From: Asparagopsis taxiformis
Lineage: Eukaryota; Rhodophyta; Florideophyceae; Bonnemaisoniales; Bonnemaisoniaceae
Length of the DNA stretch: 64,000 bases
Direction of reading: 5' to 3'
NCBI GenBank assembly: GCA_030407315.1
Contig: JALQPE010002658.1
Coordinates: 37,371 to 101,370 of the forward strand
Position numbers and translations under genes: made by a program. Positions 1 through 24,629 of the stretch are shown here, piece by piece. The notes below the pieces were generated by a model. It searched no databases. It was not told where the DNA came from and saw only the letters and a program-made list of their open reading frames with translations. Within the stretch, counting starts at the first letter, position 1. Each line of letters starts with the position of its first letter.

Positions 1-17
1 TCTGCCTCTAATGAAAC

Positions 18-397: not shown

Positions 398-2495
398 GGG
401 ACAATCATTAACTCAGATTTCAGTGGGATCAGAATCATGAACTCAGGAACAGAACAGATGTTTTCAAGGATGAGCCCACTGTAATTAAATAATTGCTGTT
501 CCAAGCAGTAGCGACATGTGAGTAGTGTTGGCTGAAGATGGATGGAAGGGTTATTCTCTATTAAACCAGAAAGGTTTTGTGACAACGCAAATGATCTATT
601 TTGTGTGTTACTGTAATTTACTGTAGGATTTGTATGATCAGCCGACAGGTTTCTGCATTGAATTAAAGACCGTACATAAAATATTGTACCATAATGTTCT
701 CAGGAAAGTTTCGAAATATATCTACTTTTCAGCATAGTACGATTTTTCAATCCCCACCGTTGCAGCAGTGACAACTCATCTTGTTTGCCTGTGGTAGATT
801 TTGTACAGAAATTATTTTAAACTTGTTTGGAGCTGTGACTGACAGAACCATCAGCTCCCAATAACACAGTAGACTATGGTTGGCCAATTTCACCACCAGT
901 AGTGCTTCGTAATGGTTGATTCACAGATGGAGCAGATTATTGTGTTAAAGTTTTGAAATTGAGACAGCAATTTTCCCATTTCATAGCTCCAAATGGATTA
1001 AGTCGGCGTGAATTGAATCAAACCTTTTTTATTGGATTTCAAGGCACGAAGAAGATATTTTAACTTCAGAACGATAGTTGAGGCACGGCTCGATTTTCGC
1101 GCGTCAAAATCTCGACATTGCATACGTTTTCCGATACAGTATGCAGCCAAGATTATTAGAACGAAACTATCCAAGTCGGATGCAATCAAAACGCATCATG
1201 CGGCGGGGGCGACGGTGAACGTATGTGAAAACGTGTTCGTCATCCCATGCGTCATTACCCTGCAGATCACTGGCACGGGTTTGTCTAGTCGAAGATACAA
1301 GTGCATTGCAGGACAGGAATGCAACTGCGTCCAAATTGCTCAGGTATTGTTCTGCAACCCAGTTTGTTTTGTATCCACAAAGCTGCAAAATTTTGTGTTA
1401 TGGTGCCACAGCGTCATGTCCATCCAAAATACTTTCGTCCCTCAGCAACGAACAGTGCCTTGCATATCTCATTTCCTCCGCTCATTTCAGCCGCTCGTAT
1501 ATGAATAACTTCCTTCATAATGCCGATCTCAATCGAGACAATCTAGTCTACATCATGTTTACTCAAGCTAGACAAACACTCAATGCATAAGAGAATCAAA
1601 TTGGATCAACGCAGCTCAAGTTGCTTCTTCATGAATGGGATGAAGCGCGTGTACGTCATGAAGTTGTAGCCGAAAGATTGGTAGCAGTGCATTTCATACC
1701 ATAGCTCGTTCCAAGCTGCTTGACACATGAATGAATGCATTTGCATTAAAAGTTTGGCTTGGTATGGGAATTACTGAAATTGAACTGTACAGGTTTCAAG
1801 CTTGAAGTGGGGTAGGCCGCTTTCCTATGCAATCAATTCAATCATCGCATAGGCACAAATCCTTACAGACAGACCCCCATTGCTCCTTCAGGACAGGTCT
1901 TGAAAGGACTCTCGGCGTAGCTGTTTTGGAGCTTTCCCTACCACGCAACGCGGCTATGATCAAATGTCCGGTGTCGGTTTGAGAGTGCGGTTCTTTCGGA
2001 TGGCACCGCTAATAAGCACATGCTTGCAAATCATTTCATCTTACTGGCACTGCATAATCAACACAGTGGGTGGGGAAATGTACGCCCTGAAAGCTCCGAG
2101 GGAACTCTCCTCCTTGAACGATCAAGGATGAAATAAGGTGTACCAGATATAGAACGTATGTGCGTTTTCGCTAGCTCTTGCTAGCGATGAGACGAATTAG
2201 TCTCTTCGAAGACCATGATTTTCCCCTGCATCTATCACTCATTACGGTGGAAACATTGCATCTATTAAGTTCGGAACTCGTAGATGATATTTGGTCATTC
2301 ACACGCCCGTTAAACTCGGTCATCAATGAGAGCGAGACTATGAATCGCCCTGTTAGGTTGGCATTGGATGCATCCACTGGATACTAGCCCTAGTTGCAGG
2401 ATGAGGCACCAGGTGCAATTTCGGGATATGTAGTTCAATGTACATGGATTAAGGAAGGTGGATCTATCAATTTCATATGCCAGTATGCGTATTCG
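398..2495 (+). repeat. Left 2.1-kb terminal inverted repeat
   Basis: This matches the reverse complement of 22533-24629 almost base for base (coordinates sum to about 25,028). The few differences include one T in the run near 1370. It contains a small hairpin, TCGCTAGC-TCTT-GCTAGCGA, at 2168-2187. Open frames inside, such as 1032-1508, show no protein-family character and are read as non-coding. The inner boundary is where left and right diverge, after the GCCAGTATG.GTATTCGA stretch. Confidence 0.9.
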
Positions 2496-2831
2496 ACAAT
2501 AATCTGTGCTCAAAATTGTGGCAACAAACCTATTACGCGGGAAAGATGCATCGAAGAATGCCCAAAGTTTACTACAAGATTAGCATTAACGGTTCAGATT
2601 CTCGATTTTGAGATAAGGGGGAAACAGAGGTTACAATGTATACATTGCATCACTGCAGTACCATTGGAAGAAGTATCTCCCATGTTTTTCAGAGTGTCCA
2701 ACTAGTTTCCGGAGACCGAAAGCTGCTTCACCATGGTAAGTATACATTAAGTCTACTCAGACTAAGATTCTGTATTCAACTTACCGAAAGACTTTCTCGT
2801 TCCAGCAAATTTTTTACTCCCCTTTTCAGCT
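2496..2831. other. Non-coding gap downstream of the methyltransferase
   Basis: There is no convincing coding frame between the left TIR and the methyltransferase stop. It presumably contains the 3' end of the leftward transcript. I see no recognisable repeat. Confidence 0.5.
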
Positions 2832-4682
2832 TCAGCTGTCCAACATTCTAAGAGAACAAGCGTCCCATGCGTAGAAACTGTCCGTAAGATCTCCCAGTTT
2901 CTTGACTTCTTCACCAGTTCCAAGAGATATGTAAGGGAATGCAATGTGATCTTTTCCATTGATTACTCTGATACGCCATATCACAACCAAGCACACGCCG
3001 TTATTTGAGTATTCGGGGTCAGCTAGGTTGTGGTTGTGTAGAGTGCGTCTGATCGGCCAAATCTCCCCCGGCGCAGGGAGGGCAAGCTGTGCATCAGCAA
3101 CTACTTCTCCGTTGACCATAAGTTTAACTGGACGGTCTGGAAGGAGGTGTTTGCAGGCCTCATCTGGTGTTTTAGTCGTCCTGGTAAGCGCGTCACAATT
3201 GAAACTTTTTGTAACACTGTTGTTACTTTCCTCCCCAAGTTCTGCTTGTTTCATTGCTTGATTTCTCCTGAAACTTTCTGATTCTGTATTTGTCTTCTGG
3301 TAAGAGCTTGACAAGCGTCTTGCGAGTCTACTATACGCTAAGCGGAAACATTCCAAGTCTTTCTCAATACTTGTACAAGTACGGCCAGTCTCCAAACATG
3401 CTAGGGCCGTTGTGAAGGTACCGGCGTAGGTATCGAGAACAGACCCACCCTCAGGGCAGAAAGTTGTCATAATTTCTATCAACAAGTCCGTGTTCTTCTC
3501 TTCAACGCGAACTGGAATTTTCTTCCCTGGCAGTTGTAGCTTATTCCTTGTCACTGGAATACCTGTAATCGATGCGAATCTACGAGGCAGATTGCAGACA
3601 ATACGATGATAGGGACTGATGAAATCAGGCTCAAACTGCTGGGGATGTCTGCCATTCTTTCGAGCAACCACACCATACTCGGTGGCATTTTGGGGAAACG
3701 CTGATAGACGATGATGCTGCATACCCGCAGTCTTCTTCACCAATGAATACACGTGACTCATTACCTTGAAATTTGTTTCACGTAGGAAAGAAATCCATTT
3801 CTGGAGGAAGCGAACGGAAGAGAATATGAATACGAAACCCCTCGGTTTGACAACGCGAGCCGCAAACTGACAAAAAGAGACAATTTCCTTGTCGTCCAGC
3901 TTGTCTTCGAAATGTCTTCCTGTGCCAGAGGCATTAGGTTCTAAACCGTAGGGTGGGTCTGTAAGGAGCAGATCTATCTCTTCATCATCAGATTGCCGCA
4001 CAGACTTGTCGTACTCCTCCCAGGTCATTTGAAAACAATGAATACCCATTTTCTCCAGCATTGAATGTTGTGATATTCTCTTCTCTTGGGAAGAATTTCC
4101 TCTCGTTTGTAGGCGCTGGGAGGTTTGTGACGGAAAGGTTTTCGTAGATGACTTGCACGGTTTGTCAATTAGTTCTTGACCATCCAATGTTCCATGGATT
4201 TCATTTCTCTTTTTCTCATCATCTGACGCCTGGGAACCATCTAGTTTTCTTTTCTTTCTTGTTGTGAGTGATGAATCTCTGTTTTCTCCCTCAGGAGGTA
4301 CATCAACATGCTCTTCTTGTACATCTCCATCAGGGCAGCTTGTATTATTTGGTGATTCGAAAGAATTGGAAACGTTCCCTTCACCATCTAGGCGCTTTTT
4401 CTCTCCTGTCTCCTGCGCAGGGCTCGGAGATTTTTCTGATTGTTTCCGATTAGGATACTGCTGGTTGTACTTGGCTTCCCTCATTGGGGCAGAGGCAGGG
4501 TGCAACTTGAAGTACAGATCCTTCAAGAAAGGAAGAATTAAAGTTCCATTACCAGAGTTTTCTTCCACCTCGTCGTCCAATTTTGTCGTTTGGGTAAGGT
4601 TCTGCTTTACAGCTGCCATCGCAGTAGGCCATTTGTCGCTTTCAAGGAACCTTTCAAACTTAAAAGCTTCTGAAAGTGCCAT
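2832..4682 (-). CDS. Beta-class DNA (probably adenine-N6) methyltransferase
   Basis: This 616-aa protein transfers a methyl group from S-adenosylmethionine to a base in DNA. The catalytic motif DPPY is at residues 242-245 (LLLTDPPYG). The SAM-binding motif VLDTYAGTFTTAL follows at about 415-427, after an 'EEKNTDLLIEIM...CPEGG' lead-in. Motif IV before motif I is the beta-class order, and DPPY favours N6-adenine over N4-cytosine, though that is not proven. Residues 70-210 are low-complexity, rich in K, E and S, with a basic KKRK near 143, consistent with nuclear localisation. The C-terminal 130 residues are a separate unrecognised domain. The ATG is only 9 bases downstream of the ParB-like stop and in the same frame. 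The DNA-modification role follows from the family; a job in protecting or marking the transposon is inference. Confidence 0.88.
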   Translation of the reverse strand: MALSEAFKFERFLESDKWPTAMAAVKQNLTQTTKLDDEVEENSGNGTLILPFLKDLYFKLHPASAPMREAKYNQQYPNRKQSEKSPSPAQETGEKKRLDGEGNVSNSFESPNNTSCPDGDVQEEHVDVPPEGENRDSSLTTRKKRKLDGSQASDDEKKRNEIHGTLDGQELIDKPCKSSTKTFPSQTSQRLQTRGNSSQEKRISQHSMLEKMGIHCFQMTWEEYDKSVRQSDDEEIDLLLTDPPYGLEPNASGTGRHFEDKLDDKEIVSFCQFAARVVKPRGFVFIFSSVRFLQKWISFLRETNFKVMSHVYSLVKKTAGMQHHRLSAFPQNATEYGVVARKNGRHPQQFEPDFISPYHRIVCNLPRRFASITGIPVTRNKLQLPGKKIPVRVEEKNTDLLIEIMTTFCPEGGSVLDTYAGTFTTALACLETGRTCTSIEKDLECFRLAYSRLARRLSSSYQKTNTESESFRRNQAMKQAELGEESNNSVTKSFNCDALTRTTKTPDEACKHLLPDRPVKLMVNGEVVADAQLALPAPGEIWPIRRTLHNHNLADPEYSNNGVCLVVIWRIRVINGKDHIAFPYISLGTGEEVKKLGDLTDSFYAWDACSLRMLDS

Positions 4683-4691
4683 TGATGCTTT

Positions 4692-4694
4692 CTA
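4692..4694 (-). other. In-frame TAG between ParB-like and methyltransferase frames
   Basis: The minus strand reads Gln-Tyr-TAG-Lys-Ala-Ser-Met, where Met is the methyltransferase ATG. Apart from this codon the frame is open from the ParB-like start to 2832. It could be a nonsense mutation of a fusion gene, a readthrough stop, or a true stop followed by reinitiation at the nearby ATG. Confidence 0.9.
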
Positions 4695-5693
4695 GTACTG
4701 TTCAGAGACTACTGCAAACTGTACAGGCTTGAAACCGTTTTCCTTACAAATTTCCCGAAGCCGAAAGAGAGTATTTATCTGAGTTTGTTCTCCATCTGTC
4801 CCTGAAGCTTTCATAAATATTGTTGCTTGCTTTAGAGATGTGATGTTAACGAACTTGCGAAAAACCCTGCAATCAAACTTTGTCTTCACGTTTTCCTTTG
4901 TGACTGAAGTATCACTTCTGGCAAAGCTCGAAGCAGCGAGTTCTGGGTGCTCTTCATTCATTATTTCCCCAATAACTTCAATGGTTGATCGCGGAAGTCG
5001 TGAAGCAGTTGCGGCAATTTGCTTGACGGTGCTTTCTTTAGCATGAGATGAGCCGTCATAAGCTGCAGCTACATCGGCAGCTGTGACTTTTTTCGAGTTT
5101 CTCTCTGTTTTGAGTCGATCATGTTCTTCTCGCAGTCCATTCAGCATGTCGAAAAGGGTTGGCTCGACAAAACATGTCTCAGAGTGTTTCGCATTCTGAA
5201 CTCTTGCAAGCTGTTTTAGAGTTAGCAGAGGAACACCTCCTTTCAACATAGTTACTGGCCATCGAAATCCCTCCCAAGTCTCTGGGTGCTTTTCGATAAG
5301 TTTTAGGATAGCAGAATGACGGTGCATTCCGTCAACTACACCAAACCACTGATTCCGTGACTCCATTTTTTCTCTTGCTTCTGATGCGGAAAGACCAGCA
5401 CCAGTCCAGTAAGAGCAAAGAACATGCCGGTGTGCTCCTGTGAGTGGCATTACAATTGCAACATCGGACCCTGCCGTGAATCCAGTACTAGAGATAATCG
5501 TTGTTAGCCGAGCTACTCCATATGGGGATATCTTCCTAATGTTGGTCATCGGAACACAGGCAAGTGGATCAACAGTGGTTATAACGGATCCTTCCATAAC
5601 ATCCTGGAATCGGGATGTCGCAGATTTCTTAGAAAGCTGCATTGAAGAGGTACCTGTTTCGAGCCTTCCGGACTGTCTGATGTGATTTACCAT
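4692..5693 (-). CDS. ParB/sulfiredoxin-like domain protein
   Basis: This protein of about 333 aa has a ParB/Srx-type fold signature: a region on preferred-value and neighbour choice (about 35-60), then W-F-G-V-V-D-G-M-H-R-H-S-A at about 115-127. The last part corresponds to the G.x.R.x.A box of ParB-N domains, with HRH in place of the usual arginines. The first in-frame ATG is at 5693; the frame opens further upstream, but only with TTG. In bacteria and phages this domain often precedes a DNA methylase in one polypeptide, and here the methyltransferase follows in the same frame after one TAG. The C-terminal 150 residues look helical and unassigned. The likely role is DNA binding or targeting, which is inference. 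Confidence 0.75.
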   Translation of the reverse strand: MVNHIRQSGRLETGTSSMQLSKKSATSRFQDVMEGSVITTVDPLACVPMTNIRKISPYGVARLTTIISSTGFTAGSDVAIVMPLTGAHRHVLCSYWTGAGLSASEAREKMESRNQWFGVVDGMHRHSAILKLIEKHPETWEGFRWPVTMLKGGVPLLTLKQLARVQNAKHSETCFVEPTLFDMLNGLREEHDRLKTERNSKKVTAADVAAAYDGSSHAKESTVKQIAATASRLPRSTIEVIGEIMNEEHPELAASSFARSDTSVTKENVKTKFDCRVFRKFVNITSLKQATIFMKASGTDGEQTQINTLFRLREICKENGFKPVQFAVVSEQY

Positions 5694-6034
5694 TGTCTGC
5701 TTCAGGGAGTGAAATGATTGTTTCGACAAATGAAACCAGAGCTAGAGTGGAATATATTGTATTCTCTCATTCAGAAAAGGCTTGAGGAGAATGGATGCGT
5801 TGAATTTGAGAGGCAGCCCTCGTTTTGGTAATTTTATTCGTCTAGAGATGATAGCCAATAAAAAAAGAATCACTTTCTTCAGAACTAGTAGACCTGATCA
5901 GTTCTCAAGTAACAGAAGTCAATATGGGATTTTTCAGAACATTCAAGTGTACATTCATGTGTTAGCGATAACGACAGAGTGGGCCACGTTTGACATCATC
6001 ACAATTCACGGCGCTTTACACAACGTAGAGCAAG
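5694..6034. promoter_or_regulatory. Left part of the divergent intergenic region
   Basis: This AT-rich DNA lies upstream of the ParB-like start and is interrupted by the hAT at 6043. With 8677-8901 and 18274-19256 it reconstitutes about 1.5 kb separating the two divergent transcription units. It is likely to hold promoters, but I cannot point to defined boxes. Confidence 0.4.
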
Positions 6035-6042
6035 GCGGGAAT

Positions 6043-8668
6043 TAGACCTGTAATCGGTTTGCGGTCTTTCCAGTTGAAACCGACAAGGTCCAAACCAGAG
6101 CAGTCCGTCATATCAAGAACAAAAATTGGTCCGATCGGTTTAAAAAGCGACGTAACGGTTAGTGGTCTCAATTCAGGGTACGGTCTAGTTTATCGGTCCA
6201 CAAGCCCTGTGCGGGAAGTCGGATTAGACCGCTGGACCGTTTCCTCACATTCTTGAACGTTTCATTGTTCGACAATCTATTACAGCAGAGTTGAAGAGCG
6301 AAACGTGTTCAATGATAACGGATAGTTGAGCTCCAAGCAGAATAGATTCTTGTGCTCTCTGCAGACTAAACATAAAACAATATTTCATCATCTCCCGGTT
6401 TTCCTGGCAGAATTTACACAGCACTTCGTTGTTCAAAACATGAATTCAACATCGAACACAACTCTTCCACAGCCAATTTCCACGAGCTCGCAGTCGCCAC
6501 CTCGAAAAAAATGCAAGAGATCCAAGACCAGTGAAGTTTGGCAATATTTCAAGGAAATTGCCTGGAATGGCAGTGCACAAACTGAGTGTATGCTCTGCCG
6601 CAAGAAATATAGTCGCAAAACAGCAACCAGCACGCTCGCACGTCACATTTCAGAAGTGCACTCCATTTCTGAGAGCAGTAGACAAACCAAAATATCAAAT
6701 GACGGGCAGCTTGTCAGTTCTTCTCCCCCTCCATTGGAAAAGAGACAAGAGAGTCTAACAAAACAGTTGTGCTTGTGGATAATCAATGCATCACTTCCGT
6801 TTGCTTCGGTTGAAAATGCAAAATTTGTTTCCTTTCTTCACACCATCGATCCCACATACAAGCCACCCTGCCGTGTCACTATCCAACGAAGAGCACTGCA
6901 ATACCATAGCGAAATGCGTTCAAAGATGAAAAACCTGATCTCCCGAGAAGCTAAGACAGTTTGTCTAACATCTGATGCATGGTCCTCGCGTGTATTTAGA
7001 GGCTACATGTGCATTACTGTCAGTTGGATAAACGACAAGTGGGAGGTCCAAAGCACTGTGCTTGATTTCAAACGGTTTGAGTCTCCGCACACCGGTGGAG
7101 CTACCTGTGCTCTTTTACATGATGTTATTATGGAATGGGGGCTGAGCGAAAAGGTGAAATCCATCACTACAGATAATGGGAGTGACATTTGTGCTGGTGT
7201 CAAGAAGTTGCACAATGTTCTGAAGTCTAGTTCTGGTAACAACAGTACATTACAGAACTTTCACTTTCGCTGTATTGCCCACGTCATCAATTTGGCAGTG
7301 AAAGAATGTATGAAGTTGGTTCACAGTGAATTGGCTGCTATTCGGTCTCTAATCAGCTCCATAAGAGGCTCTGTGAAGCGCCGTGATATTTTTGAAGCAG
7401 TGAAAATCGAACTGTGCAAACCTGAAGTCTCATTACCTGGCTTGGACGTTGAAACCAGATGGTCTTCTACTTTCCGCATGATCAAAGATGCGTACAATTG
7501 CAGAGCAGTTCTGAATTCAGTTTCCAATCGTGTTCCAGAACTGAGAGACTCTGTTGTTTCTGATGGAGAATGGAGGAAAGCTAAAACTATCTGTGGGTTT
7601 CTGCAACTCGCAGCTAGTGTAACAGAGAGTCAGTCTGGCTCCCTATACGTGACTTTAAGTTTCAGTGTATTAGCTTACAATGCACTGCTCAAAAGATGTC
7701 GCATGGCAATTGAAAACGAAGATGGAATTCTAAAATCAATTGCTGAGGCAATGCTGGGTAAATTGGAAAATTACAAGGAGGTCGTTTGTTCTGAGATGTC
7801 TGAGCTGGCGCGAGCTTTGGATCCCCGAATTCCGGGGGACATATTGAGGGATGAAGAAGTTCTGCGGAGAAATATTAAACTGATGGATTTGGCGGGGGAA
7901 GGTGGCTACAACAGCCTAGATGGTAACCAGAATACGAGAAGTGAATCATTACTAGCCCAACTAATCGAAGAAGAGCAAAGCCCGCTATTGGGTCCATCTG
8001 ATGAAATCAGGAAGTTTGTCCAGGCCACATCTGTTGGGGATCTGAAAATTGACCCTTTAGTGTGGTGGAAAACAAATGAAAGTAGGTTTCCAAATATTGC
8101 AGAGACAGCGAAAAGTGTGCTAGCAATTCAGGCATCTTCAGTAGCTTCAGAGGCATGTTTTTCAATTTCCGGTAACATCATTTCGCCCTCAAGATCATCC
8201 CTCTCAGATGAAACTATTGTTGCATCAATTTTGGTGAGATCATGGAGTAGAATCCTGAACACGTAACTAAACGGCTAATTTGAAACTCCTTTCTCTTCTC
8301 CATGGATTGCAAAGAAACAATATATTGAATGTGAACGAGCTAATCTGTGTGGTTTTCACTCAGCATAACCTCTATAATATCGTTGATACAACTATCTGAT
8401 CTGTAGCTGTAAGCATAATGGAGATCCGAACGTTCTGGTCTTCACCGTCTGGACCGTTTACAAAAACGGTCTAAACCTCGCGATCCATCCGTCCATTTCC
8501 GAAGATGCTATGAAGCGCTTCAGTTCAATACCGTCTAACCGATGAAAACTGCTATCACAATGTTCAAGAACTGTTCAGTAAGCCGTCTACAATATTGACA
8601 TTCCGGTTCGGTCCATTTGATGCCCCTGGACCACATGCAAGACCAAAACCGGACCATGTACAGGTCTA
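6043..8668 (+). mobile_element. Complete hAT transposon, 8-bp TSD
   Basis: The ends are TAGACCTGTA and TACAGGTCTA, flanked by direct repeats GCGGGAAT at 6035-6042 and 8669-8676. An 8-bp duplication is diagnostic of hAT insertion. Subterminal regions are rich in short CGGTC/GACCG motifs, typical of transposase-binding sites. It carries a single intact transposase gene. Confidence 0.93.
6440..8266 (+). CDS. hAT-family transposase
   Basis: About 608 aa from the first true ATG at 6440 (the frame opens earlier only with TTG). An N-terminal BED zinc finger spans about residues 28-75: VWQYF at its start, then C-M-L-C and a closing H-I-S-E-V-H. The central RNase H-like domain includes 'LTSDAWSS', 'TTDNGSDI' and 'CIAHVINLAVK'. 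The C-terminal hAT dimerisation domain has 'DPLVWWKTNESRFPN' and 'SVASEACFSISG'. All regions of the family are present without stops, and the gene lies inside intact TIRs with an intact TSD, so the copy may be functional. It acts in the nucleus, cutting at its own TIRs. Confidence 0.93.
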   Translation: MNSTSNTTLPQPISTSSQSPPRKKCKRSKTSEVWQYFKEIAWNGSAQTECMLCRKKYSRKTATSTLARHISEVHSISESSRQTKISNDGQLVSSSPPPLEKRQESLTKQLCLWIINASLPFASVENAKFVSFLHTIDPTYKPPCRVTIQRRALQYHSEMRSKMKNLISREAKTVCLTSDAWSSRVFRGYMCITVSWINDKWEVQSTVLDFKRFESPHTGGATCALLHDVIMEWGLSEKVKSITTDNGSDICAGVKKLHNVLKSSSGNNSTLQNFHFRCIAHVINLAVKECMKLVHSELAAIRSLISSIRGSVKRRDIFEAVKIELCKPEVSLPGLDVETRWSSTFRMIKDAYNCRAVLNSVSNRVPELRDSVVSDGEWRKAKTICGFLQLAASVTESQSGSLYVTLSFSVLAYNALLKRCRMAIENEDGILKSIAEAMLGKLENYKEVVCSEMSELARALDPRIPGDILRDEEVLRRNIKLMDLAGEGGYNSLDGNQNTRSESLLAQLIEEEQSPLLGPSDEIRKFVQATSVGDLKIDPLVWWKTNESRFPNIAETAKSVLAIQASSVASEACFSISGNIISPSRSSLSDETIVASILVRSWSRILNT

Positions 8669-8901
8669 GCGGGAATGATTATGATGTATTTTGTCTCGAA
8701 GGCAACTGCAAACATAGATTCCTTCATGGGTACTCTTATACATCGGAGAAACAATGAATGTTCGGAAACATGACAGTTCCTGATATACGTAATGTCCGTG
8801 ACCAACTTCTGTGCTGTGGAATGATGCGTACTATGCCTATGTCAAGATATCGACAGCTTTCTATGTGACCGACTTACATCATGGCTTGCTTGAAAGTTTA
8901 T
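8669..8901. other. Middle remnant of the divergent intergenic region
   Basis: The first 8 bases are the right TSD of the hAT and the rest runs to the left TSD of MULE-1. No gene is seen. Confidence 0.5.
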
Positions 8902-9186
8902 GACCTTTCTACTAGACTTTATTCGCCAGAGGATATTACACATACTGATTTGGGCGTGACTGGGAGGTAGCGCGGGGCGAGTGGACAGGTGTTGTTAGAA
9001 TTCAGTACGCACTTGAAACTCTGCTTCCAGTGTACTGGGATAGTGTACGAAATCCTGGGAAATATTTTGGTATGCAAACTTGGAATGTGCCAGCGAGCCG
9101 CCGCCGCCGCCGAAGAGGAACCAGGTTTTATCATACCGGCGACATTTAGAAACAGCTGGACATTCAAACTCCGGATCACACATAAC

Positions 9187-9790
9187 ACAGCCTCGCAGCT
9201 ATACCTCGCTCCCGCCTGCGCTGTGTGCATCACAGCATCACGCCGCCTCCCACTTGCACACGCACGCCGCCTCGCAGCTGTACCTCGCCCCCGCCCTGTG
9301 CATCACAGCTTCAAGACGCCTCACAGTTGTAATTCGCCGCCGCCTGCGCTGTGTGCACCGAAGCTTCACACCGCCTCCCACTTGCACACAGCCTCGCAGC
9401 TATACCTCGCTCCCGCCTGCGCTGTGTGCATCACAGCATCACGCCGCCTCCCACTTGCACACGCACGCCGCCTCGCAGCTGTACCTCGCCCCCGCCCTGT
9501 GCATCACAGCTTCAAGACGCCTCACAGTTGTAATTCGCCGCCGCCTGCGCTGTGTGCACCGAAGCTTCACACCGCCTCCCACTTGCACACAGCCTCGCAG
9601 CTATACCTCGCTCCCGCCTGCGCTGTGTGCATCACAGCATCACGCCGCCTCCCACTTGCACACGCACGCCGCCTCGCAGCTGTACCTCGCCCCCGCCCTG
9701 TACATCACAGCTTCAAGACGCCTCACAGTTGTAATTCGCCGCCGCCTGCGCTGTGTGCACCGAAGCTTCACAACGCCTCCCACTTGCACA
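9187..9790 (+). repeat. 201-bp tandem repeat, three copies, in the left TIR of MULE-1
   Basis: The unit begins ACAGCCTCGCAGCTATACC and recurs with a 201-bp period. It is built from smaller degenerate blocks (CCTCGCAGCTGTACCTCGCC, CCTCCCACTTGCACAC). The right TIR carries two copies in inverse orientation (about 13140-13545). Long open frames through it, rich in Pro, His, Ala and Arg, arise from the period being divisible by three. Confidence 0.9.
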
Positions 9791-10233
9791 CGCACGCCGC
9801 CTTGCAGCTGTACCTCGCCCCCGCCCTGTGCATCACAGCTTCACACCGCCTCTCACTTGCACACAGCCTCGCAGCTTTACCTCGCCCCCGCCTGCACTGT
9901 GTGCATCACAGCGTCACGCCGCCTCCCAATTCCACACCGCCACGCAGTTGTACGCTGCGCCCCGCCTGTCTATCTGAACCTGCCAAACACCAAGCGCACT
10001 CAGCCTGCAACACTGCTCACCCTTTGTGTCGCACCACACCTACCAACCACCTGCACCGACTGTGGTTCGCTCTGTGCTGACAAACTGCAAAGCGTAAACT
10101 GGCTGGAAACGTTCCTGGCCGCGTATATCGGACGGGAAAGTTCTTCACCCGCGAGAAGGGCACTTAGGGACAAACAGGCAATGGTTTTGGGCTGATGATT
10201 AAATCGGGATGGACTTAATATTCTTGATTTATT

Positions 10234-12729: not shown

Positions 12730-13833
12730 AACCAAAAAAAACAACTGAGTACACCTCCCAATTAAACAGCCAATATTCTTAGATAGTGTGCAGGTGGAAG
12801 GCGACACACGCGGCCAGGAACGTTTCCAGCCAGTTTACGCTTTGCAGTTTGTCAGCACAGAGCGAACCACAGTCGGTGCAGGTGGTTGGTAGGTGTGGTG
12901 CGACACAAGGGATGAGCAGTGTTGCAGGCTGAGTGCGCTTGGTGTTTGGCAGGTTCAGATAGACAGGCGGGGCGCAGCGTACAACTGCGTGGCGGTGTGG
13001 AATTGGGAGGCGGCGTGACGCTGTGATGCACACAGTGCAGGCGGGGGCGAGGTAAAGCTGCGAGGCTGTGTGCAAGTGAGAGGCGGTGTGAAGCTGTGAT
13101 GCACAGGGCGGGGGCGAGGTACAGCTGCAAGGCGGCGTGCGTGTGCAAGTGGGAGGCGTTGTGAAGCTTCGGTGCACACAGCGCAGGCGGCGGCGAGTTA
13201 CAACTGTGAGGCGTCTTGAAGCTGTGATGTACAGGGCGGGGGCGAGGTACAGCTGCGAGGCGGCGTGCGTGTGCAAGTGGGAGGCGGCGTGATGCTGTGA
13301 TGCACACAGCGCAGGCGGGAGCGAGGTATAGCTGCGAGGCTGTGTGCAAGTGGGAGGCGGTGTGAAGCTTCGGTGCACACAGCGCAGGCGGCGGCGAATT
13401 ACAACTGTGAGGCGTCTTGAAGCTGTGATGCACAGGGCGGGGGCGAGGTACAGCTGCGAGGCGGCGTGCGTGTGCAAGTGGGAGGCGGCGTGATGCTGTG
13501 ATGCACACAGCGCAGGCGGGAGCGAGGTACAATTGCGAGGCGGTGTTATGTGTGATCCGGAGTTTGAATGTCCAGCTGTTTCTAAATGTCGCCGGTATGA
13601 TAAAACCTGGTTCCTCTTCGGCGGCGGCGGCGGCTCGCTGGCACATTCCAAGTTTGCATACCAAAATATTTCCCAGGATTTCGTACACTATCCCAGTACA
13701 CTGGAAGCAGAGTTTCAAGTGCGTACTGAATTCTAACAACACCTGTCCACTCGCCCCGCGCTACCTCCCAGTCACGCCCAAATCAGTATGTGTAATATCC
13801 TCTGGCGAATAAAGTCTAGTGACCTTTCTGGTG

Positions 13834-16800
13834 CACTAGAACTTAAACACCCGGCTTAGAGAAGGAATTGATGGAAGCCTTGTCATATGTTGTGGCGAGG
13901 GGTGGTCACGGTTGTCCACATCGTAGGTAACGCGACTTGGTCGAGATTGGGAAATCCGAATAAATCCAGCTCCGCCCAATTCCGGATTTACCGCCGCCGC
14001 CGGTGGGTACTGTAATGATAGCTGTAATTAAATGACGACATGCAATGAACTTCACGTGACTGAGCTGCCTCGTACGCACCGGTGCATATTCCCTATCCCC
14101 GGAACGACCGGTGTTGCGCCTGCGCCGCTCCAGTGGCATACCCATGGCAACAAATACCACCAAACAGCTTTGAGTTCCTTCGTTCACTGCGCATCGGCGT
14201 GCTCAAAACCACACTGACAGCCCTGCTTCAACGACCGGCATTGTGCCTGCGCCGCTCCAGCAGCATACCCACCACCGAAAAGCTTTGAGTTACTGCGTTC
14301 GCTGCGCACCGAGACGCACAAACACAACCACACTGACAGTCCTGCTTCTACATTCATGCAAACTGCTGCAGATACGCTGGAGCTGATCACACTGATGCTC
14401 AATTCCGTGAACGCCACTTCACAAATACGCACACGGCTTCCCTGCTCCTACATTCCGAAACGAAAGCTTCCGCACTTTTCTTTGTGCTCTTCAATTGGAT
14501 AACAAGCACTGCGCAAACGTCCAAACTGTCCTCCCTGCTGTTGCCCACGCTGCACACTACCGCCCGCACATTGATAATCGTATTGATCTTTGTTTATGGA
14601 ACGGCCACATGATCCACACACTGACATTGCTGGTTATGGATCAAGGAAGATAGAATGTTGTTGGATTCAATACATTTCAGATGTGCTTGAAGCCGTCGGT
14701 TCCAGGTACTGGTATTGAATGATAGAGAAGCGGAATTTAGGTTGATTCATTGGTTTGGAAAGGGTAACAGGCCCTGATATGGAATGAATAGACGAAGGAA
14801 ACAATTCCGCGATGTGCTGATCCGGTTATTGTGTCATGCCATGCCATTGCATAGCATGGGTGGATAGCGAACAGAGAGGGAACTTTAATGGTTTATTAGG
14901 GAAGATTGAGGACATCCTCGTTTTCCCATGTCCGTGGTGCACCACGTGCATTAAGATTTCTTGACACTCTATCATGGTACGTTCTGTAGCGCTGCAAAAC
15001 ACGGAAAAGATGGTCAATTTGGCGGCTTCCAGACTCATTTTCTGATAAATCACGGACGTGTTTGATGCCCCAAGCGAAAAGATCTTGTAACTTTCTAGCT
15101 GTATCGGTGGGCTGTAGCTCTTCCGTATCGCGTGATCTAGAAACAATTATACCTGGTACAGCATGCGCAGCATGAACAGATGTAGTTGCGGATGTACCAA
15201 TTTGGGCTGTTTCAATTGAATTTTCTTCACCCGTATGCAGTGAATTCTGCTTTTCTTCACCTAGAATTGTCGCTCTATACCTGTTCTCAACCCTTTTAAA
15301 ACTGAGAAACGGAGGAGATCTACTTCGTACGACATCACGGTAGTTCGGACAGGTCATTCCGGAAGTCAAGTGCTTGCACAGAAAAAATCGGCTATGTAGA
15401 AAACCTTCACATGTACATGTCCATCGCAGTCTGTTAGTAATGTGATTTTTTGTGAGGGGAATCGAACATAGACGATTCCATTCACTGACAAAGTGCCTCC
15501 ACCATACAGGCTTCTTAATACCCGAACAGAGAAGCTCAAAGTCAGCGGAGAATCGGGGGAGAACCACTACGGATAGAATGTAAACTAAAAAGTCACATTT
15601 TGGCCGATTGTAGGGTAACAAATATACGCGTTTCAACCTTGACCAATGCGCTTCCACCATCATTGTGGTCCGGGCAATTGGGATAACTTGATTGTGTCGC
15701 CTTCCCCACAATTTGAAAACGTCATCCGAATACCAATTGCATAGTAAATATGAAATCATCCCAAAATCATCACTTCCTTCCCACAATCTAGCTATCTCAA
15801 TTCTTGCGTCTGCAAGACCTGACTGAATACGTAACTCAGGTTGAAAAGAAGAATGCATGTTGTAGTGTCTAGTGACTAGTTGCAGTATCCTCATCTCCTT
15901 TTCCCTCAGTTCCCTATGGCCATCTCTACAGATAGCATTGATTTTCCGCCGTATTGCTTGCTTCATGTGCCACAAACATATCGATGGCAGAAGTTCGAAA
16001 GCTGTTTTGATAGCACCGATCTGCCCCAAATCTTTGTCTGTAAAGAAAAATGATGGGCGCAGATCGGGGATTGTAGATCGCACAGCAGCGAGGAATTGAG
16101 TGATAGATTGTAGCCTGGTCCGGTTGCATTCGATACTTCCTGCCTCTAACAAGAGGTAAGCGATCGGGAACCCAACGCCCAGAACTGAACCGATCACTGC
16201 AAACAACTCTAATTTTGTAGAGTTAGTCTTGTATGTTGAATCAATAAACGCCTCGATTATGTTCCATTTCTCGCATATCTCTTTTCCAATCGACGTTACC
16301 ATCCCAAGTGCGAAAGGAGAAGTTAATTGCAAAACCAATTCCAAATTTTCAGCACCAGATACAAACGCTAGAGCAGATTCCTTAGGATCTGCACTGGTAC
16401 GAAATTGAGAGGCTACTGTCTCGCTCCAGACATTATATATGTTCATGTATGCGAAGGGAGTGCCAAACATATTTCTAATCCGAACAGATATTTGGAACGG
16501 AGACAAACCCAAATTGGTCAGATCCCTGATGGCTTTCCGGACATTTTCTGTCATTGCAATGACTTTCTGAGGGCTTTCATGGCAAAGCCCATGTGTAACT
16601 GTAACTTTTAAGCGCCTCTGCTTTCCATAGCATACATTTACAGAGCCCTCACAGCCATACTCTTTCTTAGAAGTCCTTCTCCTCTTTTTGCCTTCCCGGT
16701 CACTCGCATACTGACTCTTACGTCTGTTTTGCAGCTGGCTGCATATCCAACGCGTCGATGTGCATTTCATCTTGTTAGCAATGTAGCTATATCCGTCAGC

Positions 16801-18264
16801 ACCTTTCAAAAGTGCAATTAATCCCGTCTCCACTTCTCTGCGCTCTTCCTCCGAGCTAAAATCAGCTACCATTCCAAGCACAGAGCGAGATCTCCAGCTG
16901 TAGTAAACACACTCTATTGGCCATCGCAGATTCCTAGCTGCAGCATGATTGTAACTATGCCATGCTGCAATCGCCTCTCCTCCAGTTCTACAATCATCCA
17001 AATCCCCACAAAAGTATATTTTTTGGGGTATTTCATCAACAATACATGTCCTCCTGCATTCATTGCAATGTGCACTGATTGAGAGCTCATTGGTTACAAA
17101 CTGGATGCTCTGCTTACGTTTCAAGCACTTTGAGCATTTACAACAGAACAAGCTTCTTGCTTCCGTCACTGCTACACTTTTGTCAACAACAAAAGCCTTT
17201 AATGACCAAAAAACATTCTCATCTACAACGTATTCTTCAGAAGAGAATAGCTCTTCGATGCTGGACTCCACCGACTCCAATGGTAATGCATAGGCTTCAG
17301 AAAAATAGAAAGCAACATCTTCAACAGTTGGAAACTCATTACCGAATGCGTCATGATATATTTCTTTTGCGTTGTCAAATGTGTTGGAGAGTATTTCATT
17401 GTCTCCCTCGAAATTGCTCTCTTCAATTGCCATTTTGCTGTCTATACCTCCTATTACCAATGTACTGCAGCAATATCGGTGTGTGGATCATGTGGCCGTT
17501 CCATAAACAAAGATCAATACGATTATCAATGTGCGGGCGGTAGTGTGCAGCGTGGGCAACAGCAGGGAGGACAGTTTGGACGTTTGCGCAGTGCTTGTTA
17601 TCCAATTGAAGAGCACAAAGAAAAGTGCGGAAGCTTTCGTTTCGGAATGTAGGAGCAGGGAAGCCGTGTGCGTATTTGTGAAGTGGCGTTCACGGAATTG
17701 AGCATCAGTGTGATCAGCTCCAGCGTATCTGCAGCAGTTTGCATGAATGTAGAAGCAGGACTGTCAGTGTGGTTGTGTTTGTGCGTCTCGGTGCGCAGCG
17801 AACGCAGTAACTCAAAGCTTTTCGGTGGTGGGTATGCTGCTGGAGCGGCGCAGGCACAATGCCGGTCGTTGAAGCAGGGCTGTCAGTGTGGTTTTGAGCA
17901 CGCCGATGCGCAGTGAACGAAGGAACTCAAAGCTGTTTGGTGGTATTTGTTGCCATGGGTATGCCACTGGAGCGGCGCAGGCGCAACACCGGTCGTTCCG
18001 GGGATAGGGAATATGCACCGGTGCGTACGAGGCAGCTCAGTCACGTGAAGTTCATTGCATGTCGTCATTTAATTACAGCTATCATTACAGTACCCACCGG
18101 CGGCGGCGGTAAATCCGGAATTGGGCGGAGCTGGATTTATTCGGATTTCCCAATCTCGACCAAGTCGCGTTACCTACGATGTGGACAACCGTGACCACCC
18201 CTCGCCACAACATATGACAAGGCTTCCATCAATTCCTTCTCTAAGCCGGGTGTTTAAGTTCTAG
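13834..18264 (-). mobile_element. MULE-2: near-complete Mutator-like element, 9-bp TSD
   Basis: The TIRs (13836-14631 and 17469-18264) begin CTAGAACTTAAACACCCGG. The direct repeat TTTCTGGTG is at 13825-13833 and 18265-18273. The left TSD overlaps the right TSD of MULE-1, so this element landed 4 bp beyond it. Two terminal bases (CA) present at the left have no partner at the right end, a small terminal deletion. Confidence 0.92.
14896..17433 (-). CDS. MULE-2 transposase (MULE/FAR1-type) with SWIM zinc finger
   Basis: About 845 aa from the first true ATG at 17433. The architecture matches the MULE-1 protein: an N-terminal 'EEYVVDENVFW' block, CXXC pairs (CSKCLKR, CNECRRT), then a core with 'AFIDSTYKTN', 'FFFTDKDLGQ', 'CLWHMKQAIRRK' and 'VEAHWSRLKR'. 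A SWIM motif CTC...LCKH and the tail 'WENEDVLNLP' follow. The two proteins are clearly diverged, so these are independent lineages and not a duplication in place. The frame is intact within intact TIRs, so activity is plausible. Confidence 0.93.
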   Translation of the reverse strand: MAIEESNFEGDNEILSNTFDNAKEIYHDAFGNEFPTVEDVAFYFSEAYALPLESVESSIEELFSSEEYVVDENVFWSLKAFVVDKSVAVTEARSLFCCKCSKCLKRKQSIQFVTNELSISAHCNECRRTCIVDEIPQKIYFCGDLDDCRTGGEAIAAWHSYNHAAARNLRWPIECVYYSWRSRSVLGMVADFSSEEERREVETGLIALLKGADGYSYIANKMKCTSTRWICSQLQNRRKSQYASDREGKKRRRTSKKEYGCEGSVNVCYGKQRRLKVTVTHGLCHESPQKVIAMTENVRKAIRDLTNLGLSPFQISVRIRNMFGTPFAYMNIYNVWSETVASQFRTSADPKESALAFVSGAENLELVLQLTSPFALGMVTSIGKEICEKWNIIEAFIDSTYKTNSTKLELFAVIGSVLGVGFPIAYLLLEAGSIECNRTRLQSITQFLAAVRSTIPDLRPSFFFTDKDLGQIGAIKTAFELLPSICLWHMKQAIRRKINAICRDGHRELREKEMRILQLVTRHYNMHSSFQPELRIQSGLADARIEIARLWEGSDDFGMISYLLCNWYSDDVFKLWGRRHNQVIPIARTTMMVEAHWSRLKRVYLLPYNRPKCDFLVYILSVVVLPRFSADFELLCSGIKKPVWWRHFVSEWNRLCSIPLTKNHITNRLRWTCTCEGFLHSRFFLCKHLTSGMTCPNYRDVVRSRSPPFLSFKRVENRYRATILGEEKQNSLHTGEENSIETAQIGTSATTSVHAAHAVPGIIVSRSRDTEELQPTDTARKLQDLFAWGIKHVRDLSENESGSRQIDHLFRVLQRYRTYHDRVSRNLNARGAPRTWENEDVLNLP

Positions 18265-18273
18265 TTTCTGGTG

Positions 18274-19256: not shown

Positions 19257-21680
19257 ATGCACTGTCGAAGCTTCATTAAGGGTTTGAAAAATAAATCTGC
19301 AAGTTTCTTGATGACATCGAGGGCATTCATCGAATCACCTCCCTCATATTCAATGCGAGAGCCGCTCCCACTACATGGAAATAATCAACTACTGGAGGAC
19401 ACTATGTATTCTGGAACATCTATCGATGAAACAGTGGCCTCAGGTTCAAGCTCGCAAACAATAAAAAATTCCATATCTGTGAGTCGACAGTACCGGTTTA
19501 TCAAACGACAAAAGTCGGCTCCAGTTGGTTCAAGCCTCAAAACTCGCAGGAAAGGAGCAGCAGAATCTTTATCTGAAGAGATACTCCGTCGATCAAAATG
19601 CTGTAAAATGAGAAGGTGTTTCTCAAGATCTAACATTCCGTACCTTAAGGCAAAGGTGGGGATAGTGTCAAAGTTGAATAATGGAGAGCGGCGCAAAGTG
19701 TTGATGGAGATGTTACGCTTACCTGATCATGAATCAGGCCTTCAAACACCATTTTTCGTTTTCGACGGTCGTCGTGTTTGCGCGGCTTTCCTGAACAAAG
19801 CATTCAGGTTCTCTCGTGAATTGCAATGCTCGGTCAAAATGACACCGGGAAGCATGAAAAGAACAAATCATCGCTACATGGACTTCCATGATCAGAAAAC
19901 ATGCGGTAGTGATTCTATAATATCTTTCCTGAGACGCCTAGCAGATAAGACGGCTGGGAAGATGCCAGACAAACAGGAACAACACTTACCATTCTTCAAG
20001 AAGGCTGAAGTATACCGTCGATTTGAAGAAGAATACACCATTTTGTACTCAACAGAGCCTCCAACTCCGTCTTACTTCTATTCTGTCTGGAAGTCTCACT
20101 GCTTCGATATCAAAGTTCGGAAAACGACTAGGTTTGCCAAATGTGACGTATGCGAAGAACTGCGTGCAGCGATCCTTTCTGCTTCAGGACCGGGAAGTTC
20201 TACCGTTGAACTCATCAATCGGCGCAAATTACAAGTTGCCAGGGTTTCCAAGGAGAGGCAGGAATACCAATCTAAGATGGAAAGTGCTATCCTTCATCCA
20301 GATCAGTACTGTTCCATTTGTGTCGACGGAGCAGATCAATCCGCGTTTGGATTGCCGCACTTCACGGTTCAAACGAAGTCTGTTCGAGGCAAAGCTTTAA
20401 AGGTGAAGCTGATTGGAATTCTCGAGCACAGTGCCGAAAAACGTCTACATCTGTATACAATGACAGAAGAATATGAAACAGGCGCAAACCATATCGTGGA
20501 AAGCGTACATCGCTTCATCAACGAGCGTGCATCTGGTAGGATTCTTCCCCCAATATTGTACATCCAGCTCGACAATTGCACTCGAGAAAATAAGAATAGG
20601 TATTTTCTCTCTTATCTAGAGTGCTTGGTGTCCTGGAAAGTTTTTTCGGAAGTGCATGCATCTTTCCTCCCAGTCGGACACACGCACTCTGACATTGATC
20701 AAAGCTTTAGCTGTACATCGCGTCGATTGAGATCAAGTGATGCTATTACCCTGCATGAACTACATACGGAGCTCCGTGCATCCTACACACCATCCCCAAC
20801 GGTTTCTCATATGAAAAAAGTGGCAAACTTTTCGGGACTATGCAAACAAGAGAAGAACTTGACGAACATGAGAAACTTCTCACATTTTCAGTATTTCAAG
20901 TTCAATCGACTACCTACATCAAAACAGAGCTCAGAAGGATTCTTCGAAACGATATGTTACGTCAAAACAGTTTGTGACGGAGATTGGGTACCTCTCGGAC
21001 AGCATCTTGGTAAAGAGGTCCATACGTTCCTGAAGAATCCCCCGGACCTTGGAAAAACTCCCCCGACTTCAGTTACCTGCCCTGAAGGCCTAGACGAAGT
21101 AGAAGCTCGTTTGAGATCCGAAGAAGGGAGAATTAATTGCGAAGAGAAAATGGCTCAGCTACGAGATCTAGCGTCCAATGTTTTTCGTTCCAGGCTGGAA
21201 AGTTTTCACTGGGATATCCAGGGCTGTGTAGAAGGGAGCGGGCTCCAAACAAAAGAAGCGGAGAATGATAGTTGTGAAGAATTTGAAGAGGAAATCGGAT
21301 CTTATCAGGCTGCGCTCTCCAGGGTTCGAAACAATTATGGCTTCGAAAAAAACCGATTCGTTGCCGTCCGTCCTTCAAATCCTACAGCAGCCTGTCCTTT
21401 TTGGATTGCGAGGGTTCTAGAAGTGATTAATGGAAGAGAGGGGGTTCCAAGAGAGCTAATCGTACAATGGTTCGAACCCAATTCTGAAAGAGATGTATAC
21501 CACACATCGTACTCTCCCTCTTTCATCTCAAAACATGGAACATCACATCGTACCGCGTGGCGCGACAATATTCCAACGGATTCTGTAATTGTAGAGTTCG
21601 CAGATCTAACTAAGAAAAAGGAGCTAGGAATGAGAGTGCAAAAGCTATTGCGAAGAGAGTTCTGTGCCTTCATCAGCTGA
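19257..21680 (+). CDS. DUF7869-like protein, putative RNase H-fold (DDE-type) transposase
   Basis: 807 aa from the ATG at 19257. N-terminal Cys clusters (KCCKMRRC near 114; GRRVCAAF near 171) lead to a CDVC pair at 296-299. The core carries three acidic or His motifs in RNase H-like order: 'ICVDGADQ' (D357), 'IQLDNCTRENKNRYF' (D439) and 'FLPVGHTHSDIDQSFS' (H475 to D481). The DNCTRENKN...GHTHSDIDQ pair is characteristic of the DUF7869 family, which is abundant in algae, mosses and other protists and often transposon-associated. A C-terminal segment ('PFWIARVLEV...VQWFEP...WRDNIPTDSVIVEF') resembles a BAH/Tudor-like chromatin module. It is the best transposase candidate of the 24-kb element; that role is inferred. 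Confidence 0.75.
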   Translation: MHCRSFIKGLKNKSASFLMTSRAFIESPPSYSMREPLPLHGNNQLLEDTMYSGTSIDETVASGSSSQTIKNSISVSRQYRFIKRQKSAPVGSSLKTRRKGAAESLSEEILRRSKCCKMRRCFSRSNIPYLKAKVGIVSKLNNGERRKVLMEMLRLPDHESGLQTPFFVFDGRRVCAAFLNKAFRFSRELQCSVKMTPGSMKRTNHRYMDFHDQKTCGSDSIISFLRRLADKTAGKMPDKQEQHLPFFKKAEVYRRFEEEYTILYSTEPPTPSYFYSVWKSHCFDIKVRKTTRFAKCDVCEELRAAILSASGPGSSTVELINRRKLQVARVSKERQEYQSKMESAILHPDQYCSICVDGADQSAFGLPHFTVQTKSVRGKALKVKLIGILEHSAEKRLHLYTMTEEYETGANHIVESVHRFINERASGRILPPILYIQLDNCTRENKNRYFLSYLECLVSWKVFSEVHASFLPVGHTHSDIDQSFSCTSRRLRSSDAITLHELHTELRASYTPSPTVSHMKKVANFSGLCKQEKNLTNMRNFSHFQYFKFNRLPTSKQSSEGFFETICYVKTVCDGDWVPLGQHLGKEVHTFLKNPPDLGKTPPTSVTCPEGLDEVEARLRSEEGRINCEEKMAQLRDLASNVFRSRLESFHWDIQGCVEGSGLQTKEAENDSCEEFEEEIGSYQAALSRVRNNYGFEKNRFVAVRPSNPTAACPFWIARVLEVINGREGVPRELIVQWFEPNSERDVYHTSYSPSFISKHGTSHRTAWRDNIPTDSVIVEFADLTKKKELGMRVQKLLRREFCAFIS

Positions 21681-22532
21681 CAAGAGTCAGATGTGCTGTT
21701 CCATGGCATGTTGAATAAAAATGATGAAACTTTTAGTTGTGAGAATTGTTGTTGCGTTTCATACGGTCTCCAGGAACTCTCAGCATTCACTTGCAAGTAG
21801 TCTAATTTCACCTAGCTGTGTCAACTGACACTTTCACAGCGATGCATATTGTGCACATCACCTGTATACAGGTAATAACCTAGACTAACAGCTTAATCTT
21901 GGGAGGTAGCACACTTTTATGATTCATAGTGCTATGAACCGTTGAATTGACATATAAGAATACGAGACGAACACTCCCTACGTATTATACGGTTCGTCAT
22001 GGTACATATCCAGATGTTTTATGACAAATAAACTCAACGTCGTGGATCACTGATCCCAGCCACTTAACAGGTAGTCCTCAACGTTTGTGTTTCGTTTCCC
22101 CGGCTTCTATATCGTCGAAAGGAGAACGAGACTGTAGTCTCCAGGGTGAGTCCTAGATGAAGCATGTCTTTCCTAGCTTCAACTTGACCTGAGTTTGCAT
22201 TGAAATCGTTGTAGCATATGCATCATATCCGAGGAGAGTTTCATCTTGCATTCTGGACACAAAATCACTTCGTGGTGTAAACAATCAATATCTTACACAG
22301 GCCGTTTCGAAAACTTTCTCTTTCTTCCATAGGACGAAGAAAATATTTGACAGTTGAACCAAAGCCTCATTCTCAGACTTTCTCTGGAAGGACAACAATT
22401 TCCAAGTCAATCGTAAAATAGGGAGTAGGATTATGCAGTAAATGTCTATATTGGATCAGTCACTGCATAGTTGATATCTTCGTCCCGATGTATGAATATT
22501 TGTAGCAACATTGCCTCTTCAGAAGACATACT
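21681..22532. other. Non-coding, between the DUF7869-like gene and right TIR
   Basis: AT-rich DNA without supportable frames. AATAAA occurs within the first 40 bases after the stop and may serve as the polyadenylation signal. Confidence 0.45.
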
Positions 22533-24629
22533 CGAATACACATACTGGCATATGAAATTGATAGATCCACCTTCCTTAATCCATGTACATTGAACTACAT
22601 ATCCCGAAATTGCACCTGGTGCCTCATCCTGCAACTAGGGCTAGTATCCAGTGGATGCATCCAATGCCAACCTAACAGGGCGATTCATAGTCTCGCTCTC
22701 ATTGATGACCGAGTTTAACGGGCGTGTGAATGACCAAATATCATCTACGAGTTCCGAACTTAATAGATGCAATGTTTCCACCGTAATGAGTGATAGATGC
22801 AGGGGAAAATCATGGTCTTCGAAGAGACTAATTCGTCTCATCGCTAGCAAGAGCTAGCGAAAACGCACATACGTTCTATATCTGGTACACCTTATTTCAT
22901 CCTTGATCGTTCAAGGAGGAGAGTTCCCTCGGAGCTTTCAGGGCGTACATTTCCCCACCCACTGTGTTGATTATGCAGTGCCAGTAAGATGAAATGATTT
23001 GCAAGCATGTGCTTATTAGCGGTGCCATCCGAAAGAACCGCACTCTCAAACCGACACCGGACATTTGATCATAGCCGCGTTGCGTGGTAGGGAAAGCTCC
23101 AAAACAGCTACGCCGAGAGTCCTTTCAAGACCTGTCCTGAAGGAGCAATGGGGGTCTGTCTGTAAGGATTTGTGCCTATGCGATGATTGAATTGATTGCA
23201 TAGGAAAGCGGCCTACCCCACTTCAAGCTTGAAACCTGTACAGTTCAATTTCAGTAATTCCCATACCAAGCCAAACTTTTAATGCAAATGCATTCATTCA
23301 TGTGTCAAGCAGCTTGGAACGAGCTATGGTATGAAATGCACTGCTACCAATCTTTCGGCTACAACTTCATGACGTACACGCGCTTCATCCCATTCATGAA
23401 GAAGCAACTTGAGCTGCGTTGATCCAATTTGATTCTCTTATGCATTGAGTGTTTGTCTAGCTTGAGTAAACATGATGTAGACTAGATTGTCTCGATTGAG
23501 ATCGGCATTATGAAGGAAGTTATTCATATACGAGCGGCTGAAATGAGCGGAGGAAATGAGATATGCAAGGCACTGTTCGTTGCTGAGGGACGAAAGTATT
23601 TTGGATGGACATGACGCTGTGGCACCATAACACAAAATTTTGCAGCTTTGTGGATACAAAAACAAACTGGGTTGCAGAACAATACCTGAGCAATTTGGAC
23701 GCAGTTGCATTCCTGTCCTGCAATGCACTTGTATCTTCGACTAGACAAACCCGTGCCAGTGATCTGCAGGGTAATGACGCATGGGATGACGAACACGTTT
23801 TCACATACGTTCACCGTCGCCCCCGCCGCATGATGCGTTTTGATTGCATCCGACTTGGATAGTTTCGTTCTAATAATCTTGGCTGCATACTGTATCGGAA
23901 AACGTATGCAATGTCGAGATTTTGACGCGCGAAAATCGAGCCGTGCCTCAACTATCGTTCTGAAGTTAAAATATCTTCTTCGTGCCTTGAAATCCAATTA
24001 AAAAAGGTTTGATTCAATTCACGCCGACTTAATCCATTTGGAGCTATGAAATGGGAAAATTGCTGTCTCAATTTCAAAACTTTAACACAATAATCTGCTC
24101 CATCTGTGAATCAACCATTACGAAGCACTACTGGTGGTGAAATTGGCCAACCATAGTCTACTGTGTTATTGGGAGCTGATGGTTCTGTCAGTCACAGCTC
24201 CAAACAAGTTTAAAATAATTTCTGTACAAAATCTACCACAGGCAAACAAGATGAGTTGTCACTGCTGCAACGGTGGGAATTGAAAAATCGTACTATGCTG
24301 AAAAGTAGATATATTTCGAAACTTTCCTGAGAACATTATGGTACAATATTTTATGTACGGTCTTTAATTCAATGCAGAAACCTGTCGGCTGATCATACAA
24401 ATCCTACAGTAAATTACAGTAACACACAAAATAGATCATTTGCGTTGTCACAAAACCTTTCTGGTTTAATAGAGAATAACCCTTCCATCCATCTTCAGCC
24501 AACACTACTCACATGTCGCTACTGCTTGGAACAGCAATTATTTAATTACAGTGGGCTCATCCTTGAAAACATCTGTTCTGTTCCTGAGTTCATGATTCTG
24601 ATCCCACCGAAATCTGAGTTCATTGTCCC
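22533..24629 (-). repeat. Right 2.1-kb terminal inverted repeat
   Basis: Inverse of 398-2495, with only scattered single-base differences. It ends ATTGTCCC at 24629, after which the copia frame resumes. Confidence 0.9.

Follow-up and report, generated by a model that had tools for sequence, protein, structure and literature searches.

What kind of mobile element carries a predicted DNA methylase beside its transposase, and what might such an enzyme do for it? The question is raised by a 64,000-nucleotide stretch of the genome of the red alga Asparagopsis taxiformis (hereafter 'the window'; G000:C2530:37371-101370 of a 141.5-Mb assembly, in which the genome-wide copy searches were also made). 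Within it lies a 24,211-bp element that encodes a DUF7869 protein, predicted to be a transposase with a catalytic core of three aspartates (DDD), and a fusion of a ParB-like part to a methylase whose sequence is clearly of bacterial type. In the copies sampled, this fusion looks like a conserved component of DUF7869 elements. The best overall explanation, held with moderate confidence, is a Sola-like cut-and-paste transposon whose fusion would bind and methylate the element's own DNA.

Two genes in one transposon

The element (410-24620) is a real DNA transposon, as established by its ends, its target-site duplication (TSD) and an empty site, and its anatomy as described here is given with high confidence. 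Inverted-repeat alignment delimits a left terminal inverted repeat (TIR) of 2087 nt (410..2496, plus strand; tip AACTCAG...ATCAGAAT) and a right TIR of 2089 nt (22532..24620, minus strand), which are 99.76% identical over 2089 columns and are bordered by the TSD CATT (406..409 and 24621..24624). When the flanks are joined with a single CATT they match C121:34517-34756 at 98% over 240/240 nt; the insertion target is a copy of a Copia-like retrotransposon, and the empty site lies in another copy of it. The interrupted open reading frame (ORF) of the host runs on the plus strand from 15..405 (recognized by ORF reading and the empty site, with no Pfam match of its own) to 24625..25413, where Pfam matches RVT_2. 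A large transposon with 2.1-kb TIRs had already been proposed from the letters of this DNA (the 'sequence-only reading'), with ends at 398 and 24629; these were slightly too wide, because the target itself is a palindrome (GCGGGACAAT-C-ATTGTCCCGC), present before insertion, that makes the TIRs appear longer. A first end reading in the present analysis, a 2-bp CG duplication with assignment to CACTA/EnSpm, was replaced by 4 bp after tip comparison and discovery of the empty site. The palindrome (window 396-409 and 24621-24631) is seemingly missing from most other Copia-like copies, whose matches to the 240-nt join are shorter by ~17 nt or more; it is perhaps an older excision footprint.

The gene content of the element was expected to comprise three genes and in fact comprises two, arranged divergently (as had been proposed) with the fusion on the minus strand and DUF7869 on the plus strand. 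The ParB/Srx-like N-terminal part (4692..5729, minus strand; motif WFGVVDGMHR, identified by ORF, relatives' alignment and motif) and the methylase part (2832..4691, minus strand) share one frame, and their sole separation is a single in-frame TAG (4692..4694, minus strand). A close relative from a separate assembly (P0003) has an uninterrupted frame of 936 amino acids, and a ParB query of the genome placed 75 of 117 matches in open frames of at least 900 amino acids (best 117 of 656 candidates scored). The two parts are one fused gene, broken by one stop in the window copy. Its methylase was correctly assigned to the beta class: it matches PF01555, carries DPPY and, by this match and a fold predicted for P0003, belongs with the N6/N4 amino-methyltransferases, and its C-terminal region recurs in relatives. 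The DPPY motif suggests adenine as substrate, and the nearest folds are adenine enzymes, with N4-cytosine enzymes matching too. Both DPPY and the DGxHR-type motif that marks the ParB/Srx superfamily are intact in all 12 fusions examined, and a motif pattern for S-adenosylmethionine binding stands behind DPPY in eight of them (the sequence of C417 ends before this motif, and C643, C1818 and C2034 fall outside the pattern). The protein database holds at least six relatives of the fusion and at least eight of the ParB profile A4 among the candidates sharing most words.

The second gene (19257..21680, plus strand) encodes an 807-amino-acid protein that matches PF25273 at 2.4e-51, in agreement with its earlier designation as a DUF7869-like putative transposase. 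Pfam, alignment and predicted fold point to an RNase-H, integrase-like DDD core with D357, D439 and either D479 or D481 as candidate catalytic residues, followed by a probable C-terminal BAH domain. Across 50 aligned rows (A1: the window protein and 49 relatives hand-chosen from 120 listed), D357, D479 and D481 are invariant and D439 is present in at least 90%. The protein database contains at least 199 DUF7869 relatives among the candidates sharing most words, 120 of them listed; a PDB sequence search with DUF7869 found nothing above chance, and the family is not mentioned in the literature searched.

Outside the core lie three nested transposons, each recognized by Pfam matches and its own TSD: a hAT element (6043..8668, plus strand; BED and hAT dimerisation domains; 8-bp TSD GCGGGAAT) and two MULE-domain elements (8911..13820 and 13835..18265, both minus strand; 9-bp TSDs GACCTTTCT and TTCTGGTGC, respectively). 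Subtraction of all three, with one copy of each duplication, leaves a core of 12,218 bp, as against the ~12 kb and three insertions first reported.

The fusion across diverged copies

Further copies with shared tips and genes exist in the host genome, as had been anticipated, and copies without the ParB-like/methylase pair had been named as evidence that would speak against the proposed element. Where ~7 kb upstream of DUF7869 places with no listed partner was read, the fusion was found at all six places (C643, C1818, C2034, C1711, C613 and C2995; hand-picked, with C2995 belonging to the C1978 class already known from other copies to carry it). Similarly, a C1978 fusion with no listed DUF7869 proved, on reading of the sequence, to have one adjoining, C2228 carries DUF7869 beside the fusion on the same strand, and both genes are paired in C417 and C197 as well. 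Apart from C2995, the fusions at these six places are ~31-62% identical to the references, and over the sampled DUF7869 subfamilies the identity of the fusion spans 30-62%. Among database relatives, P0003 and P0007 (the latter sharing 95% identity with the DUF7869 protein of the window) each have a longest contig of 8109 bp, and P0001 and P0008 each one of 8751 bp; these equal lengths suggest, without proving it, that the members of each pair lie on one contig.

Genome-wide counts extend this comparison. The best 150 of 502 candidates were scored for PF25273 and the best 150 of 2605 for PF01555; PF25273 was matched in none of 14 control genomes (a weak control, because the 11 named ones are all prokaryotes) and PF01555 in 11 of the 14. 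Pairing within 20 kb used 117 ParB and 56 DUF7869 places, after 18 of 135 and 1 of 57 rows, respectively, had been dropped as second stretches of listed places, and joined 43 of the 56 DUF7869 places to a ParB place (31 divergent, 12 on the same strand). Elsewhere in the assembly, G000:C481:29207-43131 holds four ParB-like matches, all on the same strand at intervals of ~4.3 kb and each containing a single TGA, in what looks like a tandem array.

One alternative makes the fusion a captured passenger that contributes nothing to transposition. Methylases with different neighbours in other lineages (L039 and L083, described below) indicate that the gene does travel, and 13 of the 56 DUF7869 places have no listed ParB place within 20 kb, although one of these (C613) was later shown to carry the fusion. 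The presence of the fusion at 6/6 sampled places and its intact motifs, however, make it look like a conserved part rather than a passenger. Third codon positions differ at 0.63-0.68 versus 0.27-0.41 at the other two (three comparisons), an excess expected under protein-level constraint, and the two proteins have diverged in parallel, their identities being correlated over seven pairs (six from loci, plus P0001/P0008, with the window compared by its ParB part only) with r 0.72, a value reached or exceeded in 16 of 5040 permutations. A passenger is accordingly regarded as very improbable.

Kinship of the element and origin of the fusion

The tips of the six subfamilies compared start with AAC and carry CAGAA ~18 nt further in, and a 4-bp TSD is present in eight of the nine elements with both ends in hand (for the remaining copies one end only was retrieved). 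Beyond the tips the TIRs diverge greatly. They are imperfect and ~28 nt long in C2228 (13.1 kb), those of the window measure 2.09 kb, and the C16 family has TIRs of 2.2 kb or more; the TIRs of the window, C16, C1052 and C1017 are mutually dissimilar at E 0.01. The 11.3-kb copy C1052 has TIRs 99.6% identical and no visible large insertion, and its DUF7869 frame is broken. Contigs G000:C245 and C2777 start within a few bases of an element tip, showing that these repeats interrupt the assembly.

Giant EnSpm elements of red algae are reportedly treated by Petroll in 2025; EnSpm duplications measure 2-3 bp, and kinship is not suggested because the TSD here is 4 bp. Those of Chondrus crispus, in the portion of the source available, are large and multigene, as here, and reside in the same kind of host (PMC6431247); a red algal host is also what the Copia type of the target, together with the literature, would suggest for the present element. 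A Sola-like filing is preferred because the length of the TSD and the predicted DDD core are as described for Sola, and this kinship is considered likely. The Sola superfamily is described, in excerpts of two sources, as having a DDD transposase, a 4-bp TSD and highly variable TIRs (PMC10741241, PMC3627910), of which the 4-bp TSD and the variable TIRs recur in the DUF7869 elements, whose predicted DDD core agrees with the description. The same excerpts quote the Sola2 TSD as AWWT, whereas the TSDs here are not all AT-rich, and Sola elements in general, as portrayed there, are set apart from the present ones by the fusion that the latter carry.

The sequence-only reading knew of no described eukaryotic DNA transposon family with this gene set, a view overtaken by Sola1-1_Ec32, a giant Sola-1 element of the brown alga Ectocarpus (PMC12477816, in its accessible part). 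Like the window element, it is large and encodes, opposite its transposase, a ParB-like/N4-cytosine/N6-adenine methyltransferase protein; it differs in its length of 21.5 kb and its protein of 1104 amino acids, and in some of the present subfamilies the two genes run in the same direction. In the same passages its authors cite green and red algal cases, remark that giant families often harbour nested insertions, and suggest self-binding of the protein and self-modification of the element (PMC12477816). Transposons carrying TET/JBP and SET genes likewise encode enzymes acting on epigenetic marks, but these are described, in the text available, as oxidising methylated bases or methylating histones, whereas the window's enzyme is a predicted DNA methylase (PMC12730594).

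A prokaryotic or viral source for the fusion, as originally supposed, may be correct, to judge from its bacterial-type methylase and from weak phage matches of a different fusion in the same genome, at locus L039. Among 50,697 phage records, however, none matched the ParB part of the window's fusion, and a pattern-and-tblastn search for the fusion (A2) returned none in viral contigs or GTDB contigs. These null results distinguish it from bacterial and phage ParB-methylases, even though the bacterial protein Bce_0392, as described in part of PMC5512222, similarly joins a ParB-like domain to an adenine methylase. The whole fusion matched 124 phage records, the 20 matches listed covering at most 30% of it and all lying over the methylase. 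No match to the DUF7869 protein or profile A1 was confirmed in viral contigs, and plasmids contained no DUF7869.

Other methylases of this genome keep different company. At L039:3504-7061 (G000:C44) a 1186-amino-acid protein combines a DGAHR motif, N6_N4_Mtase (PF01555, 2.4e-16) and SET (PF00856, 4.3e-6), and an open frame of this length is repeated many times among the listed PF01555 places. Its N-terminal ParB part has the weak phage-family matches mentioned above (phrog_4272 at 1.7e-5; phrog_1033, 'ParB-like', at 0.0031); no DUF7869 match was found in the scanned L039 ORFs, and none was recognized by eye in L084. L083 (G000:C1850) holds a methylase-SET protein of 1080 amino acids and a separate ORF with a DGLHR motif (1717-4956 and 7870-9798), and by eye its ORF at 7178-8110 looks similar to the C-terminal region of the fusion encoded in the window.

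What the fusion might do

In the explanation favoured here, the DUF7869 DDD transposase would recognize the AAC...CAGAA tips and insert the element with a 4-bp stagger. The second gene, divergent in the window's subfamily, would yield a ParB-like/N6-adenine methylase fusion whose role would be to bind the element's DNA and to label it as 'self' by methylation; self-methylation as such is considered reasonably probable. The mark might sustain the activity of the element within host chromatin, or might let the transposase, through its BAH domain, distinguish element from host; a chromatin or anti-silencing purpose, rather than one in the timing of transposition, is rated slightly short of an even call.

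Several observations count against this explanation. The quoted Sola TIRs measure 11-1124 bp (PMC10741241, PMC3627910, in part) and are thus exceeded by the 2.09 kb of the window's TIRs and the 2.2 kb or more found in the C16 family. The flanks of C1052 show no 4-bp TSD (its subfamily mate C1745 has CCTC). Transposase folds match the predicted DUF7869 fold with middling Z-scores, and Foldseek found no match at E 0.001 or better, so far as the listed structure matches extend, beyond which a transposase family could lie. The fold of the fusion was predicted from nine sequences with a mean local confidence score (pLDDT) of 63, and DPPY is lost in two of nine aligned relatives (P0005 and P0006), some of which may be inactive. 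Only 68 of 150 listed PF25273 places have a ParB or methylase partner listed no more than 16 kb away (66 upstream of DUF7869, 30 on the same strand and 36 on the opposite one, and 2 downstream), in a pairing that used 31 of 150 methylase places, the 119 omitted being mostly of the long SET-bearing classes represented by L039 and L083; conversely, 78 of 117 listed ParB places have a listed DUF7869 place, co-occurrence from these lists being incomplete. Finally, the Pfam model of ParB was matched by 0/11 members tested (E up to 5), so that the earlier label 'ParB-like' holds, on its motif, for the ParB/Srx superfamily and not for ParB proper. A PDB sequence search with profile A4 gave no match, and the structure matches listed for the fusion are all occupied by the methylase, with room for a ParB family beyond them.

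The same 11 members gave weak, sub-threshold matches to GmrSD_N (in four) and DndB (in three), which raises the alternative that the ParB-like part is a nickase regulated by nucleoside triphosphates that aids cutting or replication of the element, the methylase protecting the element from it. ParB domains of this superfamily, including that of Bce_0392, are reported as nucleases in the part of PMC5512222 available; the GmrSD_N and DndB matches are, however, not significant and the activity is only putative, and this alternative is judged quite unlikely.

A further alternative has the methylase governing the timing of transposition, with hemimethylated ends after replication switching the transposase on or off, much as Dam controls Tn10. 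Retention of the methylase beside the transposase in sampled copies agrees with it, as does a paired GTCACG, 10-13 nt apart and ~75-88 nt from the tip, in three subfamilies (C16; C1052/C1745/C85; C1017); all seven such pairs in the window and 26 loci scanned sit at tips (L037:110, L041:837, L062:176, L079:300 and partners). The motif is nevertheless absent from the window's own subfamily, and no such pair was found in C417, C2228 or C197. Timing control therefore appears unlikely, if less so than the nickase.

Self-marking by the fusion remains the preferred reading. A more ambitious version, in which the elements form a superfamily that needs its methylase as much as its transposase, is doubtful; it would have the fusion mark the element and the transposase read chromatin through its BAH domain, with other transposon lineages of the genome having joined the same type of methylase to SET, so that mobile DNA in an alga would possess an epigenetic system of its own. 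At its more modest strength, the analysis widens a published remark on a single accessory gene towards a pattern, in which sampled and strongly diverged DUF7869 subfamilies keep a methylase fusion. DUF7869 thereby gains a likely function, that of a transposase; the findings also point to methylase-SET proteins in neighbouring repeats, and self-methylation by a eukaryotic transposon becomes directly testable with native long-read data.

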